From an uncultured Bacilli bacterium (GTDB lineage Bacteria > Bacillota_I > Bacilli_A > RF39 > UBA660): a stretch of DNA of 33,783 nt. Made by a program: the position numbers and the translations under genes. The notes under the pieces are model-generated. The model was not told where the DNA came from and searched no databases. It saw nothing but the letters and a program-made list of their open reading frames with translations. Numbering within the stretch: position 1 is the stretch's first letter; each line of letters begins with the position of its first letter. This document shows, piece after piece, positions 4,876 to 33,736 of this stretch. Location of the stretch: positions 1 through 33,783 of the forward strand of contig CANPXO010000008.1 of NCBI GenBank assembly GCA_947586205.1, in the 5' to 3' direction.

Positions 4876-4905
4876 AAAAAATATGATGAATTTTATCACC
4901 ATATT
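4876..4905 (-). terminator. AT-rich hairpin terminator after surface gene 1
   Basis: The minus-strand transcript reads AATATGGTGA, six bases, TCATCATATT and then a U run: a 10-bp stem with one G-U pair. It starts at the stop codon of the 4904-6385 gene. Its core, GATGAATTTTATCACC plus flanks, is repeated exactly at 7956-7976. Confidence 0.55.
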
Positions 4906-6385
4906 ACAAAGAAAGACGAAACATATTGTCGAAACTACCATCACCAGTAACTAGTAAAACAGAGGTTGATAAGTAAACAGAAGGATAAATATTATATACA
5001 CCCCAAAGCCAATCGCTATGTAATTGTCCTTTAAGTATAGAAAAGCTGCATGGGGAATTTATAAAATCACTAGGTGTCATAGTCCATAAGTTATTATTAT
5101 AAAACATCCAATTGTTGATATTACAATTTAAATTTTCCTCAAGATTCCACTCACCCATTTTAATATTCTGACATTTTGTTTGATTTAATTCAGTTGCATT
5201 TCCTATAGTTGCAAAACCATAATCACTTGGATAAATAAGGCCCACTTTCCCTTTCCAACTTGTAGTTTTTTCTACATTATCATTACAATCCGAAACACTA
5301 TACTGTTTACAACTATCGCCTGTAGTATTACTTCTTTCGATATTATAGGCTTGTATCACATTGATATCAGCATTAGATTGTCCTTGAAAACTACTACCCA
5401 TATTCCATGTTACTTCTTCTAACATCTTTTTTAAGTTTTCAGGTATTCCACTTTCTACAAAATCACAAGATACTCTTGACCCATTCGCATACTTATAGCA
5501 GCTACCTTTTTCACGATTCCAATATAAGCTATTATTGATATATTCATTTTTTTGTATTACCCCTTCATTGTTTTCCAATTCATTTCTATCATACCCATTA
5601 TTTAATAATTTCATAATATCACTATTACTCCACTCATTAACACCATGTCCATTATTTATATTTGATGCAGAAATATCCCACGCAAACTCTCCAATAGAAT
5701 CTTGTTTTACTAATTTTATTCTTTGTCCTTCTGGAGTATTGACAAGCCCTATGACTCTCCAAATTTGTCCATCAATATTAACATAGTTATGAACATAGTC
5801 AGTCGGATTACTAATGGCATCATAATTTTTTCCAGCATATCTTCGTTCTTCCTGTTTTAAATTATCTACTTGTTCTTTTGTTCCTTCCCAAGTAATATCT
5901 GCACTACTATGGTCTATTAAATAAAGTCCTGATACTCCACTATTTTCTTCTTGAATAGATAATTTTTGAATGTATTCCACAAAATTTTCTCCCTTTTTAA
6001 AATACAAATTACACTTAGTTCTAGATGTTGTCATTCCCTTTACTTGAACAATACAATCATTTGTCATAGAAACTGTAATATTTGGATCTTTCTCACCATT
6101 CACTCCACAGTAACTGTTTTTTGTATCTAATCGGTATCCCGCATCTTTACTGGGCATTTCTTTTTGTATTTTATATTCATGATTATCATTCATTTGATAA
6201 TAAGCAAAATAAAGATTTCCTGGGTCTTGGACAGTCCCTTTGATAACATTCTGATTTGTTTTCACCTCAAATACGGCAAATGTTCGATAAAAAACTACGC
6301 CTGCAACCAATAAAATACATGTTATGGTAAATACAATAATTCCAAATTGTTTATGATTTCTTTCTTTAAACTTTTTTAGTTTCAT
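4904..6385 (-). CDS. Surface protein 1: shared anchor module plus DUF6273-like ectodomain
   Basis: 493 residues. It begins MKLKKFKERNHKQFG with a hydrophobic helix (about 14-36), then YRTFAVFEVKTNQNVIKGTVQDPGN. This first ~130-residue module, including CNLYFKKG, is shared with the genes at 14697 and 31818. The layout (basic tail, one helix, then A-x-F-E and N-x-I-x-G) recalls TasA/camelysin-like secreted proteins, but weakly. The rest has IWRVIGLVN, MLEEVTWNMGSS, YPSDYGFAT and an ending VYLSTSVLLVTGDGSFDN, all matched in the 14697 product, and this ending resembles DUF6273-type domains. It should be an extracellular, membrane-anchored or cleaved protein; ligand unknown. It diverges from an XRE regulator 116 bases away. 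Site AGTAGGAAAGAG precedes the ATG. Confidence 0.8.
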   Translation of the reverse strand: MKLKKFKERNHKQFGIIVFTITCILLVAGVVFYRTFAVFEVKTNQNVIKGTVQDPGNLYFAYYQMNDNHEYKIQKEMPSKDAGYRLDTKNSYCGVNGEKDPNITVSMTNDCIVQVKGMTTSRTKCNLYFKKGENFVEYIQKLSIQEENSGVSGLYLIDHSSADITWEGTKEQVDNLKQEERRYAGKNYDAISNPTDYVHNYVNIDGQIWRVIGLVNTPEGQRIKLVKQDSIGEFAWDISASNINNGHGVNEWSNSDIMKLLNNGYDRNELENNEGVIQKNEYINNSLYWNREKGSCYKYANGSRVSCDFVESGIPENLKKMLEEVTWNMGSSFQGQSNADINVIQAYNIERSNTTGDSCKQYSVSDCNDNVEKTTSWKGKVGLIYPSDYGFATIGNATELNQTKCQNIKMGEWNLEENLNCNINNWMFYNNNLWTMTPSDFINSPCSFSILKGQLHSDWLWGVYNIYPSVYLSTSVLLVTGDGSFDNMFRLSL

Positions 6386-8002: not shown

Positions 8003-8989
8003 TTATCTTCGCATCAATTTATAATCTAATTCTTTTTGAGAAAGTTCTAAAGTATTTAAGTCATAACTATATAATGTCGCGAATTCTTCAGTATTCACAT
8101 TATCAATAGTAATGTTTAAACGTCCATCCTTCACTATACACTGAATAGATTTGCTTTCATTCCATTCCATAATTTCTTTTAAAGGTTTTTCTTGATAATC
8201 AAATATTTTTAAAATGTTATCGTCATCCACTGCTATTACGTAGGACTCTGTTAGATAAACAAGAGCTTTAAATGTCCTACTTGTATAAATTTTTTCTCCT
8301 TTTTGATTATAGATTTCATAGTTCTTATCACTCCCTGGATAACCATAATAAACAGGCTCATTACTAATCTTGGATGTCACAAGCTCATCATTATTTTTAT
8401 TTGTGATAAAGCTGAAAGTGGAAGCATCTAAAATACGTTCAAAATTTTTGTTATAGACATTTACATAATTGGCTCCTGATCCTGGAAGCGAACTCATATA
8501 GTAATCACCTAAAACATGTAAAGCTGAGTATTTGACATCATCGCATCCAAAGCGGTCCTCTGTGATTTCTTGTAATCGTTTTCCAGTTGTTTTATCTAAA
8601 ATAAAGAAATGAGCAAGTTTACAAGAACCATTATCTTCTAAAAAAGTGATAGTCTTTTCACCAGCTTGAGACATTTTATATTTTTTATTAAGATCCAATG
8701 CCAAGTTCACTTTCTTTTTATTTAAAAAGTCATAATAAACATAGGTATTATCTAGCAAAAAAACATCAGCATCATGAACTAAGATATACTCTTGTTCACT
8801 ACAATTGTCATTTCGACAACGGTAAGTTCCAACAAGTTCATAATCGTTATGTTTTGTCATACTTGAAAAATAAAATTGATTGTTTTTATAAAAATAAATA
8901 ATCTTAGATGGTTTCATATATAGGAATACTCCTATCGAAAATAAAAGAATGACAATTAGTGATACACCAATGATAATTTTTGCTTTCAT
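8003..8989 (-). CDS. Membrane-anchored extracytoplasmic protein, unknown function
   Basis: 328 residues, ATG preceded by AAGGAG. One N-terminal hydrophobic helix (about residues 4-25, no lipobox Cys) is followed by a Tyr/Asp/Lys-rich domain of repeating short beta-strand patterns such as NKKKVNLALDLNKKYKM, DKTTGKRLQEI, YNQKGEKIY and FDYQEKPLKEI. The spacing of these blade-like units would suit a beta-propeller, but I cannot identify a family. Two Cys pairs (CRNDNC; CKL ... CDD) could form disulfides. It is followed by a terminator and lies 51 bases after the YjbR-like gene, possibly in the same transcript. Confidence 0.75.
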   Translation of the reverse strand: MKAKIIIGVSLIVILLFSIGVFLYMKPSKIIYFYKNNQFYFSSMTKHNDYELVGTYRCRNDNCSEQEYILVHDADVFLLDNTYVYYDFLNKKKVNLALDLNKKYKMSQAGEKTITFLEDNGSCKLAHFFILDKTTGKRLQEITEDRFGCDDVKYSALHVLGDYYMSSLPGSGANYVNVYNKNFERILDASTFSFITNKNNDELVTSKISNEPVYYGYPGSDKNYEIYNQKGEKIYTSRTFKALVYLTESYVIAVDDDNILKIFDYQEKPLKEIMEWNESKSIQCIVKDGRLNITIDNVNTEEFATLYSYDLNTLELSQKELDYKLMRR

Positions 8990-14696: not shown

Positions 14697-15962
14697 ATGA
14701 AACTAAAAAGATTTAAAGAAAAAGATAACAAAAGAATAGGAATTCTTATATTTACAATAGTTTGTATTTCTCTTGTATCAGGTGCAATTTTGTATCGAAC
14801 ATTTGCTATATTCGAAGTAAAAACAAGCCAAAATGTTATTAAAGGAACTGTACAAGACCCTGGTAATATTTATTTTGCTTTTTATGTAAATGATGGAACA
14901 GAAGATAAAATTCAAAAAGAAATGCCTACTAAGAATTATGTTTTAGATGAGGATAAAAGTTACTGTGGAGTAAATGGAGAAAGAGATAATAAAATTAAAG
15001 TCACTTTAACAGATGAATATGGAATTTATGTCACTGGAGTCACAACTTCAAGAACAAAGTGTAATTTATATTTTGTAAGTGGAGCATTTATTTTAGGAAA
15101 ACCAATCAAAGCAATTACTAGTGGAGAAGGTCTTTATGAAGTGACTCATGAAGATACAAGTGGAACCATAAATGATACTGGTTTTAAAGAAACAGAATTT
15201 CGATATGCAGGTAATAATCCAAACAATTATGTAACATTTAATGATGAGAAATGGAGAATTATTGGACTGGTAAATGTCATGACAAGTGATAATACAGTAG
15301 AACAAAGAGTCAAGATTACTAGAAGTGAAAGTATAGGGAATATTGCTTGGAATACAAATAATATTAATGATTGGACCCAAGCAAGTCTACAACAATTATT
15401 AAATACTGGAAATTACTATACTAAAACAGGTGATTATTCTGAAAATGGTTTAACTGAAAGTGCCAAACAAATGATAGAAGAAGTGACTTGGAACATAGGT
15501 AGTAGTAAACTTGAAAATACACTTTCCAACAATTATTATACTAACGAAAGAGGAAATAACACGCCTTATAGTCACCCTTATACATGGATTGGAAAAATAG
15601 CTCTTTTTTATCCAAGTGATTACGCATATGCAACAAGTGGAAGTGAAACTTATGCTAGACAAAATTGTTTAAACAGTTTAGTATATAACTGGGAAAAAGA
15701 AAGAGATCCAACATCTTACGAAAACTGTGTATTAAATGACTGGCTTTGGGATTCACAATCTTATCAACATTCACTTACATCGGCTTGGGACGGAGAAAGC
15801 GATTTAATTCGTATTACTTCATATGGAGATACTCGACGAAATACAACTAGTAATACATCAGCTATTAAACCAACTCTCTATCTAAAACAAAATGTTAAAA
15901 TTGTGAATGATGATCAAGACGGAAGTTATGATAAACCTTATAATTTAAAACTTGTTGAATAA
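14697..15962 (+). CDS. Surface protein 2: shared anchor module plus DUF6273-like ectodomain
   Basis: 421 residues. The N-terminus (MKLKRFKEKDNKRIG, a helix at about 14-36, then YRTFAIFEVKTSQNVIKGTVQDPGN) is near-identical to surface proteins 1 and 3, including SYCGVNGE and TTSRTKCNLYF. The ectodomain follows surface protein 1: FRYAGNNPNNYVTF, WRIIGLVN, MIEEVTWNIGSS, ALFYPSDYAYATSGS, and an end AIKPTLYLKQNVKIVNDDQDGSYDKPY, a DUF6273-like finish. The C-terminal 50 residues show normal AT-rich codon use, unlike surface protein 3. AGAGG lies upstream of the ATG. A membrane-anchored exported protein with unknown ligand, probably repressed by the divergent XRE protein. Confidence 0.82.
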   Translation: MKLKRFKEKDNKRIGILIFTIVCISLVSGAILYRTFAIFEVKTSQNVIKGTVQDPGNIYFAFYVNDGTEDKIQKEMPTKNYVLDEDKSYCGVNGERDNKIKVTLTDEYGIYVTGVTTSRTKCNLYFVSGAFILGKPIKAITSGEGLYEVTHEDTSGTINDTGFKETEFRYAGNNPNNYVTFNDEKWRIIGLVNVMTSDNTVEQRVKITRSESIGNIAWNTNNINDWTQASLQQLLNTGNYYTKTGDYSENGLTESAKQMIEEVTWNIGSSKLENTLSNNYYTNERGNNTPYSHPYTWIGKIALFYPSDYAYATSGSETYARQNCLNSLVYNWEKERDPTSYENCVLNDWLWDSQSYQHSLTSAWDGESDLIRITSYGDTRRNTTSNTSAIKPTLYLKQNVKIVNDDQDGSYDKPYNLKLVE

Positions 15963-21866: not shown

Positions 21867-22320
21867 ATGGCTAAAAGTTTAGCACATACCAAGTATATGT
21901 GCAAGTACCATATTGTATATTCCCAAATATAGGAGAAAAATCATATACAATAAATTAAGAAAGGAAATCCAAAAGTATATAAAGGATTTATGCAAATGGA
22001 AGGGAGTAGAAATCCTAGAAGGACATATGATGCCTGACCATGTGCACTTGTTAGTAGAAATCCCACCAAGAATCAGTGTATCAAGTTTCATGGGGTATTT
22101 GAAAGGAAAAAGTAGTTTGATGATCTTTGAAAAGAATCCAAATTTGAAATATAAGTTTGGGAATAGAAATTTTTGGGCAACGGGATATTATGTAAGTACA
22201 GTAGGACTCAATGAAGCAACAATAAGGAAATATATAAGAGAACAAGAAAATGAAGATATGATGGAAGACAAATTAAGTAAGAAAGAATATATTAACCCTT
22301 TTAAAGGTTTGTTAAAGTAG
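21867..22320 (+). pseudogene. tnpA: IS200 transposase tnpA, frameshifted
   Basis: The natural start is ATG 21867 (MAKSLAHTKYMCKYHIVY) with GGAG upstream. That frame meets TAG at about codon 19; the rest continues in the +1 frame (the track ORF from TTG 21913: YIPKYRRKIIYN). The expected sequence VY-IPKYRRK is restored if one TA dinucleotide is added to the run at about 21915-21920, so a 2-base deletion broke the gene (or the base calls are wrong). The downstream part is complete: HUH motif in MMPDHVHLLVEIPP, WATGYYVSTVG and the catalytic-Tyr helix ATIRKYIREQE. The element is probably immobile unless helped in trans. Confidence 0.8.
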
Positions 22321-29525: not shown

Positions 29526-30794
29526 ATGATTTTAAGAGAATTATCGATTGAAGAATTTACAGACTTTGTATCCGCTAGTCCACTTTGGACTCATTATCAA
29601 ACGATTAACTATGCTCTTTTAATGGGAGAAAACGGTTATGATTATGATTTGATTGGTTTTGTGAATGAATATGGTCAGATAAAAGCGGCTTCTTTAATTC
29701 TTACAAAAACAATTAAATTTCATACCAAATATGGTTATGCACCTAAAGGATTTATTCTAGATTATTTTAATCAAGGCTTATTAAAAGAATTTGTAGAAGC
29801 CTTAAAAGCTTATTATAAAAAGAAACATGTGGTATTTATTAAAATCAATCCTGAAATTGCTATAAGTGAAATAGATACAACAAACTTTGTAAAAACTTAT
29901 AATTGGAATTATGATATAAAAGAAATTTTAGAAGATAATGGCTTTATTAAGTTAAAAGATAATTTATATTTTGAGTCTCTCCTCCCAAGATTCAGTGCAG
30001 TGATTTCTTTAAAAAATTATGATATTAAAGAAATCAGTAAAAATACTAGAAATAAAATTAATCGTTCTACTTTAAAGGGGTTACACTTAGAAAAAGCAGA
30101 GAAATCTGGAATTGATATTTTACAAAATTTTATTGCAAAAAAACGAAATACTCGTGACTTTTACTATAAAGATTATTATAATGTGTTTGAAAGAAATGAT
30201 ATGATTGATTTATTTTTAGTGAATATTCATCCTGATGAGTTTTTAGTAAATGCTCGTAAGCTTTATGAATTAGAATTAGAAAAAAATAATCATTATCAAT
30301 CTTTATTAGAAAAAGAAAGTACAAATAAAAATATTAATCAAAAGATGGATTCAGATCGAAAGTTACTTTCTTATAAACATGATGTAGAACTTGCAACAGA
30401 ATTAAATAAACAAAAGAATCGTATTTATATCGCAGGTGCTTTAGTCATTCATCAAAAGAATCGTATACAAATATTAATGAGTGGATATGATAAGAAATAT
30501 AAATCATTTGATGCCAATTATTTTTTACATCATTCCATATTAGAGTATTATAAAGAAGATTATGATTATGCGGAATTAAATGGAATGACAGGAGATTTTT
30601 CTTTAGAAAATCCATATAACGGATTAAATCAATTTAAGTTAGGTTTTCGTCCAAGAGTTTATGAATATATTGGAGAGTATGATTTGCCAATTGATTCTAA
30701 AAAATATTATAAGTTAAGAAGCAGTGGGGTTTTAGCTAAAATATTTAATAAAACAGATATAAAAAAGAATAAAAAGGAGAAGAAAAATGATTAA
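29526..30794 (+). CDS. FemABX-family aminoacyltransferase
   Basis: 422 residues from ATG 29526; the track's GTG is inside the GGGGTGA site. It shows the FemABX pattern: two GNAT-like halves (FTDFVSASPLWTHYQT, KYGYAPKGFILDY, IKINPE; and later RIYIAGALVIHQKNRIQILMSGYDKKYKSF, YAELNGMTGDF) around a helical arm (LELEKNNHYQSLLEKES) that in relatives contacts the tRNA. Such enzymes add amino acids from aminoacyl-tRNA to the peptidoglycan stem peptide, building the cross-bridge. YAPKGFILDYF and YNGLNQFKLGFRP are close to the family's usual wording. It overlaps gmk by 8 bases. Confidence 0.9.
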   Translation: MILRELSIEEFTDFVSASPLWTHYQTINYALLMGENGYDYDLIGFVNEYGQIKAASLILTKTIKFHTKYGYAPKGFILDYFNQGLLKEFVEALKAYYKKKHVVFIKINPEIAISEIDTTNFVKTYNWNYDIKEILEDNGFIKLKDNLYFESLLPRFSAVISLKNYDIKEISKNTRNKINRSTLKGLHLEKAEKSGIDILQNFIAKKRNTRDFYYKDYYNVFERNDMIDLFLVNIHPDEFLVNARKLYELELEKNNHYQSLLEKESTNKNINQKMDSDRKLLSYKHDVELATELNKQKNRIYIAGALVIHQKNRIQILMSGYDKKYKSFDANYFLHHSILEYYKEDYDYAELNGMTGDFSLENPYNGLNQFKLGFRPRVYEYIGEYDLPIDSKKYYKLRSSGVLAKIFNKTDIKKNKKEKKND

Positions 30795-31464
30795 AAAGAA
30801 AAAAAATGGGGAGTTAATTGTTATTTCAGGTACTACTTGTGCAGGTAAAGGAACAATCGTAAAAGAACTTGTAAAAAGAAATGAAAACTTAAAAGTATCA
30901 ATCTCTTACACTTCTAGAGAAAAAAGAGAAAATGAAGTGGATGGAAAAGATTACTTTTTTGTAACACCAGAAGAATTTGAGAAAAAAATTCAAAATGAAG
31001 ATTTCTTAGAATATGCTAAAGTTCAGTATGGTAAGTATTATGGTACTCCTAAAAAAGAAGTAAAAGAACTTTTAGCTAGTGGAAAAGATGTGATACTAGA
31101 AATTGATGTTCAAGGTGCTAAACAAATTAAAGAAATGTTTCCGGAAACAATTTTAATTTTTATTCTTGCTCCGAGTATGGAAGAAGTAAAAAGAAGAATT
31201 AAAGCAAGAGGAATGGAAAATAATGAACAAATTCTTAAAAGATTCCAAGTTGCTTATCAAGAAATTAATGAAATCAATAAATATAATTATGTTGTTGTGA
31301 ATGACATATTAGAAGATGCTGTACAAAAAGTAGAAGCTATTTTAATCAGTGAAAAATGTAGAGTAGATAGAATTGAAGAAATAGCTGTGGAAAATGAAGA
31401 AGAAATTATTCATGAATTCTTAATGGATAAAGATTTTGATAATACACCTTTAGATATTAATTAA
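30787..31464 (+). CDS. gmk: Guanylate kinase
   Basis: 225 residues; AAAGGAG precedes the ATG. It phosphorylates GMP to GDP. Motifs: P-loop GTTCAGKGTIV, which departs from the common GPSGVGKGT by Thr-Thr-Cys-Ala in the loop though GKGT is intact; GMP site SYTSREKRENEVDGKDYFFV and EYAKVQYGKYYGT; VILEIDVQGAKQIKEMFP; lid RIKARGMENNEQILKRF. A C-terminal acidic extension of about 30 residues (ending DNTPLDIN) exceeds the usual ~205 residue length. Translationally coupled to the FemX-like gene. Confidence 0.93.
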   Translation: MIKKKKNGELIVISGTTCAGKGTIVKELVKRNENLKVSISYTSREKRENEVDGKDYFFVTPEEFEKKIQNEDFLEYAKVQYGKYYGTPKKEVKELLASGKDVILEIDVQGAKQIKEMFPETILIFILAPSMEEVKRRIKARGMENNEQILKRFQVAYQEINEINKYNYVVVNDILEDAVQKVEAILISEKCRVDRIEEIAVENEEEIIHEFLMDKDFDNTPLDIN

Positions 31465-31702
31465 ATATTGTAAATAATCATAAACCAGTTATATTTAATG
31501 ATAAAACTTTAATGACATAGTTTAATTCATGTTTAAAGATACTTTTAAAATTGTAATCTTCAATTTCTTTGATTTTTCTTCTTTCTTATTGATTTTTTCT
31601 GTATTTAGTAATAATATCATAGAATCTTTTTGGGTAAAAGATATTTGGGTTTTTGAGATTTAAGAACATCCTTTTTTGTGTTTTATTCTATTTTCTTTAT
31701 TC

Positions 31703-31780: not shown

Positions 31781-31811
31781 ACTTATCTACAAATTTACAA
31801 TGTGGATAAGT
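31781..31811 (-). repeat. Hairpin directly after the variable-region gene
   Basis: ACTTATCTACA (31781-31791) and TGTGGATAAGT (31801-31811) pair at 10 of 11 positions with a 9-base loop, 6 bases beyond the stop codon. There is no T tract, so it is a poor terminator. DGR target genes often have a stem-loop or cruciform just past the variable region that aids retrohoming. Confidence 0.55.
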
Positions 31812-31817
31812 AAAGGG

Positions 31818-33683
31818 CTAGGGTGTACAAACGACACGAAAACTAGCATAAACATTCGCTCGACCGTAGTCATTATCGAAAGCCGCGAGACCCGCGTCCG
31901 TGCCGTCTGTAACATTACCACCACGGATGAACCACGGATTGTAGCCAGAGACAAATAAAGCAGTGGCTCCATTGTAACTTCCTATAGTTCTTGGAGTTGT
32001 GCCACTATCATAATATACTTGATAAAATGGTCCAAATTCTTTTGTTCCATCTCCTAAATGTCCTCTTTTAAAATCTTGGCTTGTTATATTATAATCATAT
32101 AAGTCATAATATTTTGAAGAAGGCCATGAAACTCCATTTATTTTGCTTTCATCATTAGAATCATTAGAATATGGTCCATTAAATCCTGAATTATTTTCAG
32201 AATCTGATCCACTTGTTGGTGATGAATTAATATTACTTCCTTGCATAACCCCCATCACATATTCCCATGCTCCACCAGCCATATCATAAACTCCTGAATA
32301 ATTGCCTGTTGTACTTGCTACTTGACTTGCTTTATTATAATAACTCAAAACTTTTGTACCATCTGTTGTTAAAGATACGTGTTCATAAGAATTACAATCT
32401 TTCATTGAATTTGTATATCCACATATTGGTGCTTCTTTTGCTGACATGCCTGTTATATAACTACCATTATTATTAATTCTTACTTCTTCACATTTTGTCT
32501 CTCCATTTTCTTCATTACATCTTCCATATTTACTGTTTGTTAAATATGCTACTGCTCCCCATTCTGTATTTTTCATCATATGACTTTCTAAGTCTCTTTT
32601 ATATTCATAACTTGTATAAAAAGCATTTGCTACTTGAATATTTCTCCAACTATAAACATTTGGTTTAATGATAACTTTTGTTGAATTTGTTTCATTATGT
32701 TGAGCTCCTGCTTTATTCCAACTATTTATAGGCATGACACTTCCATCACTATTTTGATTATATCCTGTTTCAAACTTTCCAACCCAAAAACCATTACTAT
32801 CAAATGCTTCAAAGGCCGGATGAACGATTGAGTCTCCTTTACTCAATAATGTTGTACTTATTCCTTTATCCTTTGAGCCAAATTCTATCTCAAAGGCATT
32901 ACTGGCTCCCTTATTTCCACCTTCAATGGAGTTATAAAAGCTTTGAACATCTACATGTTGTCCTTTATCTTCGGCAGTAGAATAACTATTAAATGTTTCT
33001 TCATTACCTTGTAATTTATAACTATATCTTGGGATCCATACAAAATAACTTTCAATATTTTCTTCTGGTATTTGTTCTCCAGGTCTATAATTATCTTCTA
33101 CTCCAGTCTTTAGTATCACTGCATTTGCCCATTTTTTATCTGCATATTTATACCAATCACTTGTGATATCTGCTTTATAGACATTTCCACCTTTATCTCC
33201 TGTATATAAATCAGGTCCTTTTGTTTCTGAGATAGTAACTGGTACTAATCTTCCATTTCCTAAATCTGGTATAGCACCATTTAATAATTCTTCTTTATAT
33301 ATTTTCTTAAAATGAAGATAACACTTTGTTTTAGTTGTTGATACATTTTTAATTTCTACACTCCAATTTTCATAGTTCCAATTTACATTACTTATTTTCT
33401 CATTATTTAACATATCTATACAATAACTACTACTTGTATCTAAAGAATAACCATTACTTTTTTTAGGAGCTTCTTTTACAATTTCATTATCTTGGTAAAA
33501 TGCAAATTCTATATCTCCCATACTCTGAACTTCTCCATTAATCACATTTTGATTTATTTTCACTTCAAAGATTGCAAATGTTCTATAGAGTATTACTCCA
33601 CTAACTAACAAAATACAAACAATGGTAAATACAATAATTCCTATACTTTTATTATCTTTTTCTTTGAATCTCTTTAGTTTCAT
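31818..33683 (-). CDS. Surface protein 3: anchor module plus FGE/C-type-lectin-like domain, DGR target candidate
   Basis: 621 residues, the longest of the family. The anchor module MKLKRFKEKDNKSIG, helix (about 14-36) and YRTFAIFEVKINQNVINGEVQ matches surface proteins 1 and 2. The rest is an FGE-sulfatase/SUMF-type fold: YFVWIPRYSYKL (about 217), HPAFEAF, GFWVGKFETGY, MMKNTEWGAVAYLT, GVYDMAGGAWEYVMG (about 470), and a C-terminal end PWFIRGGNVTDGTDAGLAAF ... SFRVVCTP. That ending is typical of DGR-diversified C-type-lectin-fold proteins, which bind ligands through the variable tail. The last ~45 codons are GC-rich, unlike the rest. Ribosome binding site AGTAGGAAGA precedes the ATG. No reverse transcriptase lies nearby in the window. 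Catalytic activity is not expected. Confidence 0.85.
   Translation of the reverse strand: MKLKRFKEKDNKSIGIIVFTIVCILLVSGVILYRTFAIFEVKINQNVINGEVQSMGDIEFAFYQDNEIVKEAPKKSNGYSLDTSSSYCIDMLNNEKISNVNWNYENWSVEIKNVSTTKTKCYLHFKKIYKEELLNGAIPDLGNGRLVPVTISETKGPDLYTGDKGGNVYKADITSDWYKYADKKWANAVILKTGVEDNYRPGEQIPEENIESYFVWIPRYSYKLQGNEETFNSYSTAEDKGQHVDVQSFYNSIEGGNKGASNAFEIEFGSKDKGISTTLLSKGDSIVHPAFEAFDSNGFWVGKFETGYNQNSDGSVMPINSWNKAGAQHNETNSTKVIIKPNVYSWRNIQVANAFYTSYEYKRDLESHMMKNTEWGAVAYLTNSKYGRCNEENGETKCEEVRINNNGSYITGMSAKEAPICGYTNSMKDCNSYEHVSLTTDGTKVLSYYNKASQVASTTGNYSGVYDMAGGAWEYVMGVMQGSNINSSPTSGSDSENNSGFNGPYSNDSNDESKINGVSWPSSKYYDLYDYNITSQDFKRGHLGDGTKEFGPFYQVYYDSGTTPRTIGSYNGATALFVSGYNPWFIRGGNVTDGTDAGLAAFDNDYGRANVYASFRVVCTP
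31824..31963 (-). other. Candidate DGR variable region (VR)
   Basis: Hand count: 69 of 140 bases are G or C here, against 44 of 140 in the next stretch upstream in the same gene. Rare codons for this genome (GCG, CTC, GGC, GAC, ACG) cluster here. At the exposed positions of the tail the codons are GTT, GAC, CTC, TTC, GAT, AAT, TAC, TAT, GCT, AGT: all end in C or T with changes in the first two bases, as expected if AAC/AAT codons in a template repeat had been mutated at A. The fixed frame PWF-x-RGG ... G-x-AGL-x-AF ... G-x-A ... SFRVV matches typical VR tails. Confidence 0.65.
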
Positions 33684-33706: not shown

Positions 33707-33736
33707 ATTATAACATACCGCGGACAATGTCCGCAA
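33707..33736 (-). promoter_or_regulatory. Promoter of surface gene 3 with palindromic operator
   Basis: Minus-strand TTGCGG (33731-33736), 18 bases, TATAAT (33707-33712). The spacer and -35 are covered by a perfect palindrome GCGGACA-A-TGTCCGC (33720-33734), GC-rich in AT-rich surroundings, so a repressor bound there would block the promoter. Confidence 0.65.

Follow-up and report, generated by a model that had tools for sequence, protein, structure and literature searches.

Among described DGRs, that of Treponema denticola (PMC4891356) resembles in many respects the locus with which we deal here. Both are bacterial, and both combine a core locus, made of a reverse transcriptase (RT), an accessory gene, a template and a core target, with distant targets. 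The differences of the variable repeats (VRs) are adenine-directed, and the targets are likely surface proteins with a C-type-lectin (C-lectin) fold. The DGR of BPP-1 (mtd, avd, brt; PMC3240598) is a second point of reference, with Avd and a DGR RT, a C-terminal VR in a C-lectin protein and, after the VR, a site and an inverted repeat. A site and a hairpin of this kind are required in BPP-1 for efficient retrohoming (PMC3240598). More than one template may serve a single DGR, as is also the case below: two template repeats (TRs) are known in Stenotrophomonas SKA14, for example (PMC6642488). Finally, in known genomes that carry several DGRs, as in the present one, targets are best explained by a template and an RT acting in trans. 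DGRs are recognized by at least 75% of TR/VR mismatches falling at template adenines (Roux et al., PMC8144416).

The window, that is, the whole stretch of DNA that was analysed (33,783 nucleotides of an uncultured Bacilli bacterium; contig CANPXO010000008.1 of assembly GCA_947586205.1), carries on its minus strand an intact open reading frame of 621 amino acids (31818..33683). A remote DGR target had been predicted here from the raw sequence, and an RT with its template was then located in the same genome. We hold it very probable that the product of the gene is a C-lectin protein anchored in the membrane and probably exposed at the surface, and that the gene is targeted remotely, in trans, by the DGR lying on another contig, C31, because its tail shows an adenine bias relative to TR1, the first template of C31, keeps the third bases of AAY codons, is followed by a site motif shared with C31, and belongs to a protein with a TaqVP-like predicted fold. 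The first-pass annotation, which saw the letters of the window only, had singled out a tail richer in G+C (about 49%) than its surroundings (about 31%). The recount agrees: G+C is 49.3% between 31824 and 31963, against 31.4% in the adjacent 140 bases and 31.4% in the whole gene, and only 0.24% of the 140-mers of the window are equally rich. The tail had been placed at 31824-31963; the stretch homologous to TR1 runs from 31824 to 31964. Elsewhere in the window, a short open reading frame on the plus strand (21913-22320) resembles, by eye, an IS200-type transposase (MPDHVHLLVEIPP).

The protein is ordered as an N-terminal membrane anchor, middle domains and a C-terminal C-lectin-fold domain, with the VR at the very C-terminus, ending just before the stop codon. 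A Lys/Arg-rich start precedes a long predicted hydrophobic helix (residues 11-38; 33570..33653, minus strand; sequence reading together with a model of low local confidence), which makes it probable that the protein is held in the membrane and, as we infer, exposed outside. A Pfam profile search gave FGE-sulfatase below its cut-off only (E=0.0055) and a PDB sequence search no useful match, which made structure prediction necessary. The model (pLDDT 86, pTM 0.84, from an alignment of 30 sequences) has as top matches in a PDB structure search TaqVP (E=3.6e-9, with about 15% identity to the window protein), Mtd and the formylglycine-generating enzyme (FGE), which supports the C-lectin fold claimed at the outset. 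Upstream of the gene, a putative promoter reads TTGCGG-N18-TATAAT (33707..33736, minus strand), with the palindrome GCGGACATTGTCCGC (33720-33734, minus strand) between its -35-like and -10-like boxes. A phage origin of the gene was considered and rejected: relatives among 2.9 million viral contigs number 0.

The window's own genome (1.48 Mb in 104 contigs, 92% complete), when searched with RVT_1, yields three DGR-type RTs, on contigs C31, C11 and C6. Each has an Avd-like neighbour, and only that of C31 passes the curated cut-off (NF033474, 84.9 bits for a cut-off of 80; bAvd, 74.1 bits; PHROG 'Avd protein of DGR'). The combination of a DGR RT and Avd, absent from the window and anticipated elsewhere in the genome, is therefore present on C31. 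The RT matches a PHROG RT family (E=1.4e-104), with 8ub7 as the nearest RT in the PDB (E=3.8e-46), and contains the motif IGNYTSQ, which we take to be the DGR hallmark replacing the QGxxxSP of other RTs. The order on C31 is TR1 (L040:147-287), TR2 (L040:490-630), the cis target gene (907-2814), a small MutS-domain-I protein (L003:520-894; Pfam MutS_I, 40 bits), Avd and RT. A similar MutS-like gene stands ahead of Avd in relatives too, and a search of the open-access literature found no paper on a MutS-like DGR accessory protein. DGR accessory genes are reportedly the subject of a paper by Wu et al. in NAR, in 2018. TR1 and TR2, both homologous to the VR, are non-coding: they lie outside long open reading frames, with upstream open frames of just 1-3 amino acids. 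Each is preceded by TTGACT-N17-TAAATT, with weak support as a promoter (11 promoter-like hits for 4.7 expected).

The working state of this DGR is best seen, in sequence, at the cis target. Its VR differs from TR1 at 19 positions, 17 of which (89%) are template adenines, and both exceptions carry the base of TR2, which suggests a TR2/TR1 mosaic or descent from an older template. G026, a related species, has an identical TR1 (100%), and its cis VR departs from this template at 11 sites, 10 being at A, in codons partly other than those altered in the window's own genome. A block of 1.9 kb, from the end of the cis VR through the RT (L040:2809-4722 against L228:2247-4160), is 98.6% identical between the two genomes, whereas identity in segments of the cis target body is mostly 64-88%; the RT module of C31 may for this reason have been exchanged recently, or be a recent arrival. 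The cis target gene has, between its -35-like and -10-like boxes, a tract of 9 G in the window's own genome (L040 ~855-863) and of 10 G in G026 (L228 ~290), and this promoter is possibly phase-variable.

How does the tail of the window gene compare with these templates? The VR (141 nt; 31824..31964, minus strand) aligns with TR1 without gaps and differs from it at 23 positions, 15 of which (65%) are template adenines. The near-copy with differences at A that had been predicted to exist elsewhere is accordingly TR1. Template adenines are changed at 15 of 36 positions (42%) and other template bases at 8 of 105 (8%; hypergeometric p=1.1e-5), the latter being 92% identical. It had also been proposed, before any template was seen, that exposed codons ending in C or T derive from AAY, and this is what the template displays: the third base of its AAY codons is kept in 11/11 cases, 7 of the 11 having a change in the first two bases. 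The codon at the 5' edge of the VR (GAT to ACT) is incompletely explained by the template. TR2 was rejected as the main template of the tail, with 20 non-A differences against 8 for TR1, and so were the DGRs of C6 and C11 as its source, since the templates and targets of these two are of a different protein family. The tail is also nearer to TR1 than to the cis VR, from which it differs at 36 positions in 165 nt, and some template adenines are intact in the tail where the cis VR is changed.

The stop codon is immediately followed by a putative target-site motif of 17 nt, an IMH-like flank, CCCTTTACTTATCCACA (31801..31817, minus strand). It occurs exactly in two places only in the genome, the window gene and the cis target of C31, which agrees well with the remote target that had been claimed. 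Allowing two mismatches adds two further places, and a control with the reversed pattern gave 0 matches. In G026 the exact motif is found only after the cis target. Beside the VR, an AT-rich inverted repeat of 10 pairs with one mismatch and a loop of 9 nt (31781..31811, minus strand) folds as DNA at -4.3 kcal/mol (z=-3.2), that of the cis target being much stronger (z=-5.3).

If the window gene is a target of C31, an RNA spanning TR1, or a sibling template, would be copied by the C31 RT with Avd, any base being inserted opposite template adenines. The cDNA would then replace the last ~140 nt of the gene, the site being chosen via CCCTTTACTTATCCACA after the stop codon together with the adjoining inverted repeat. 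What the sequences show is the RT, Avd, the templates, the adenine bias, the site motif in common and the fold; rewriting in trans would go on, and ligand binding would be its purpose. C31 and the contig of the window (C8) are tied together by three things only: binning, the common motif and the match between TR and VR. This counts against a C31 target, as do the 8 non-A differences among 23, the weak, AT-rich inverted repeat, and an RT block shared at 98.6% with another species. With 35% of its differences not at A, the window gene falls below the 75% criterion, the bias itself being significant, and because of this we keep open both a drifted tail and a different template. The tail may have been written by the C31 DGR in the past and have drifted since, rewriting having ended. 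We regard this as possible, if somewhat doubtful: the 8 non-A differences, where the cis VR has 2, are spread along the tail, one of them being synonymous, and the window's inverted repeat is weak and AT-rich, but the 17-nt site motif is unchanged, the frame and the scaffold residues are intact, and the 105 non-A template bases have kept their 92% identity.

Just as tentatively, we consider that the tail was written, now or formerly, from a third template, absent from the assembly and unlike TR1 at a few codons. Because C31 starts 146 nt before TR1, more templates could lie upstream, and template sets do vary among species, with up to 11 in G003. A change such as GGT to GTT, in a stretch rich in AAY, would be A-directed if that template had AAT at this place. 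Yet none is seen in an assembly that is 92% complete, and G026 has a gene, not a template, just upstream of TR1, the one copy nearby, at 3 kb, being degenerate.

The gene belongs to a family of about 20 members in its own genome, all with the same anchor. The frame RGG...AGLxAF...SFRVV, noticed at first in the window gene, is conserved across these paralogues, with intervening positions that vary. In most of them template-A bias with respect to TR1 is not clear. Two paralogues cut by contig ends differ from TR1 at A in 17/20 (C47) and 12/16 (end of C11, within 132 nt) cases, and by their sequence look like VRs of TR1 too. Relatives of the family are found in many uncultured Bacilli MAGs, several of them from isolates named 'Lapin' (rabbit, by name). 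At the gmk-side site, where the window gene stands, other paralogues are present in other genomes and in contig C75 of the same bin. In the latter (L246), the fem-gmk DNA is 94% identical to window 30060-31465, with a different target paralogue beside gmk; C75 is either a strain variant or a co-binned relative. That members at this site differ between genomes implies that whole family genes move or recombine, and one could imagine from this, and from the 3' flank common to the window gene and the cis target, that tail and flank are a mere DNA copy of the cis target, made by gene conversion or duplication; this is most improbable, because the tail is nearer to TR1 (23 in 141 nt) than to the cis VR, because copying an already changed cis VR could not restore template adenines, and because a copied site, if later rewritten, remains a DGR target.

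The two other DGRs of the genome are complete (L057:6378-6799 on C11 and L058:7905-8405 on C6), with 13/13 and 23/23 TR/VR differences, respectively, at template A. The target of the C11 DGR has a run of 10 G in its 5' coding region (L057 ~8530-8540). In the assembly its first ATG and the body are in different frames, and this, beside the run of G, is why the gene may be phase-variable. The window contains two further proteins with the anchor of the target gene, at 4904-6385 (minus strand) and 14697-15962 (plus strand). In their C-terminal parts they show homology to the C11 and C6 DGR targets (E down to 2e-53); a template-like DNA match for these two genes was looked for and not found.

Template arrays in relatives deserve separate mention. 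G003, a single assembly that is 66% complete, has 11 distinct in-register templates upstream of MutS-like protein, Avd and RT, in a tandem array with conserved flanks (L226, G003:C5, 483-4371) and a spacing of about 370 nt; other genomes have 1-3. The flanks are nearly identical and the cores differ. In the RNA that trails the templates, 7 of 37 predicted pairs have changes on both sides. Positions with A as consensus vary most (86 of 180 differences, A being found at 33 of 131 positions), and many codon columns combine a fixed third base with variation at the first two, where A is one of the alleles. Because the overall p is 0.035, this pattern in the sequences is suggestive, and suggestive only. 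VRs of G003 are closest to differing templates, for example C36:145 to T483 (2 non-A and 9 A differences) and C1:11996 to T2344 (7 non-A and 14 A). A search of the open-access literature for arrays of this kind found none, which is no proof of absence. A conjecture, and an unlikely one, is that the templates of this genus form an expandable library of tandem cassettes, themselves rewritten at A, that would store partly fixed, once-successful receptor tails and pass them on to the ~20 dispersed surface proteins, the window gene included. In each cassette a template core would stand between a conserved element upstream and a trailing RNA with structure, with up to 11 different templates per RT, as in G003. 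If true, templates would be a heritable, evolving memory of receptor variants.

The mechanism proposed for the window gene is already known. Less ordinary is what surrounds it in this lineage, Bacilli of the gut that are uncultured and have small genomes: a family of about 20 C-lectin proteins per genome, three DGRs in one genome and arrays of templates. This makes it possible to test whether a single RT draws on several templates to supply many dispersed targets, and whether the templates evolve in their turn. The array found in the genus is the part most worth attention.

We may now come back to the known systems. Unlike the T. denticola DGR (PMC4891356), which has an HRDC-type accessory protein and one template, the C31 locus has Avd with a MutS-domain-I protein and two templates, and the target anchors are unrelated, as far as they are named. 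BPP-1 is a phage (PMC3240598), while the gene studied here is bacterial; here the cis target is preceded by the templates, and the inverted repeat is AT-rich in the window gene and has a loop of 9 nt, where that of BPP-1 is GC-rich with a loop of 4 nt. Targets in the known genomes with several DGRs mentioned above belong to conflict systems, and here to one large family of membrane-anchored paralogues. TaqVP of Thermus aquaticus (PDB 5vf4), a DGR variable protein, has the nearest solved fold, to which the window protein adds an anchor and extra N-terminal domains. Finally, in contrast to the DGR of Stenotrophomonas SKA14 (PMC6642488), the templates come here as tandem cassettes with conserved flanks, reaching 11 in G003.
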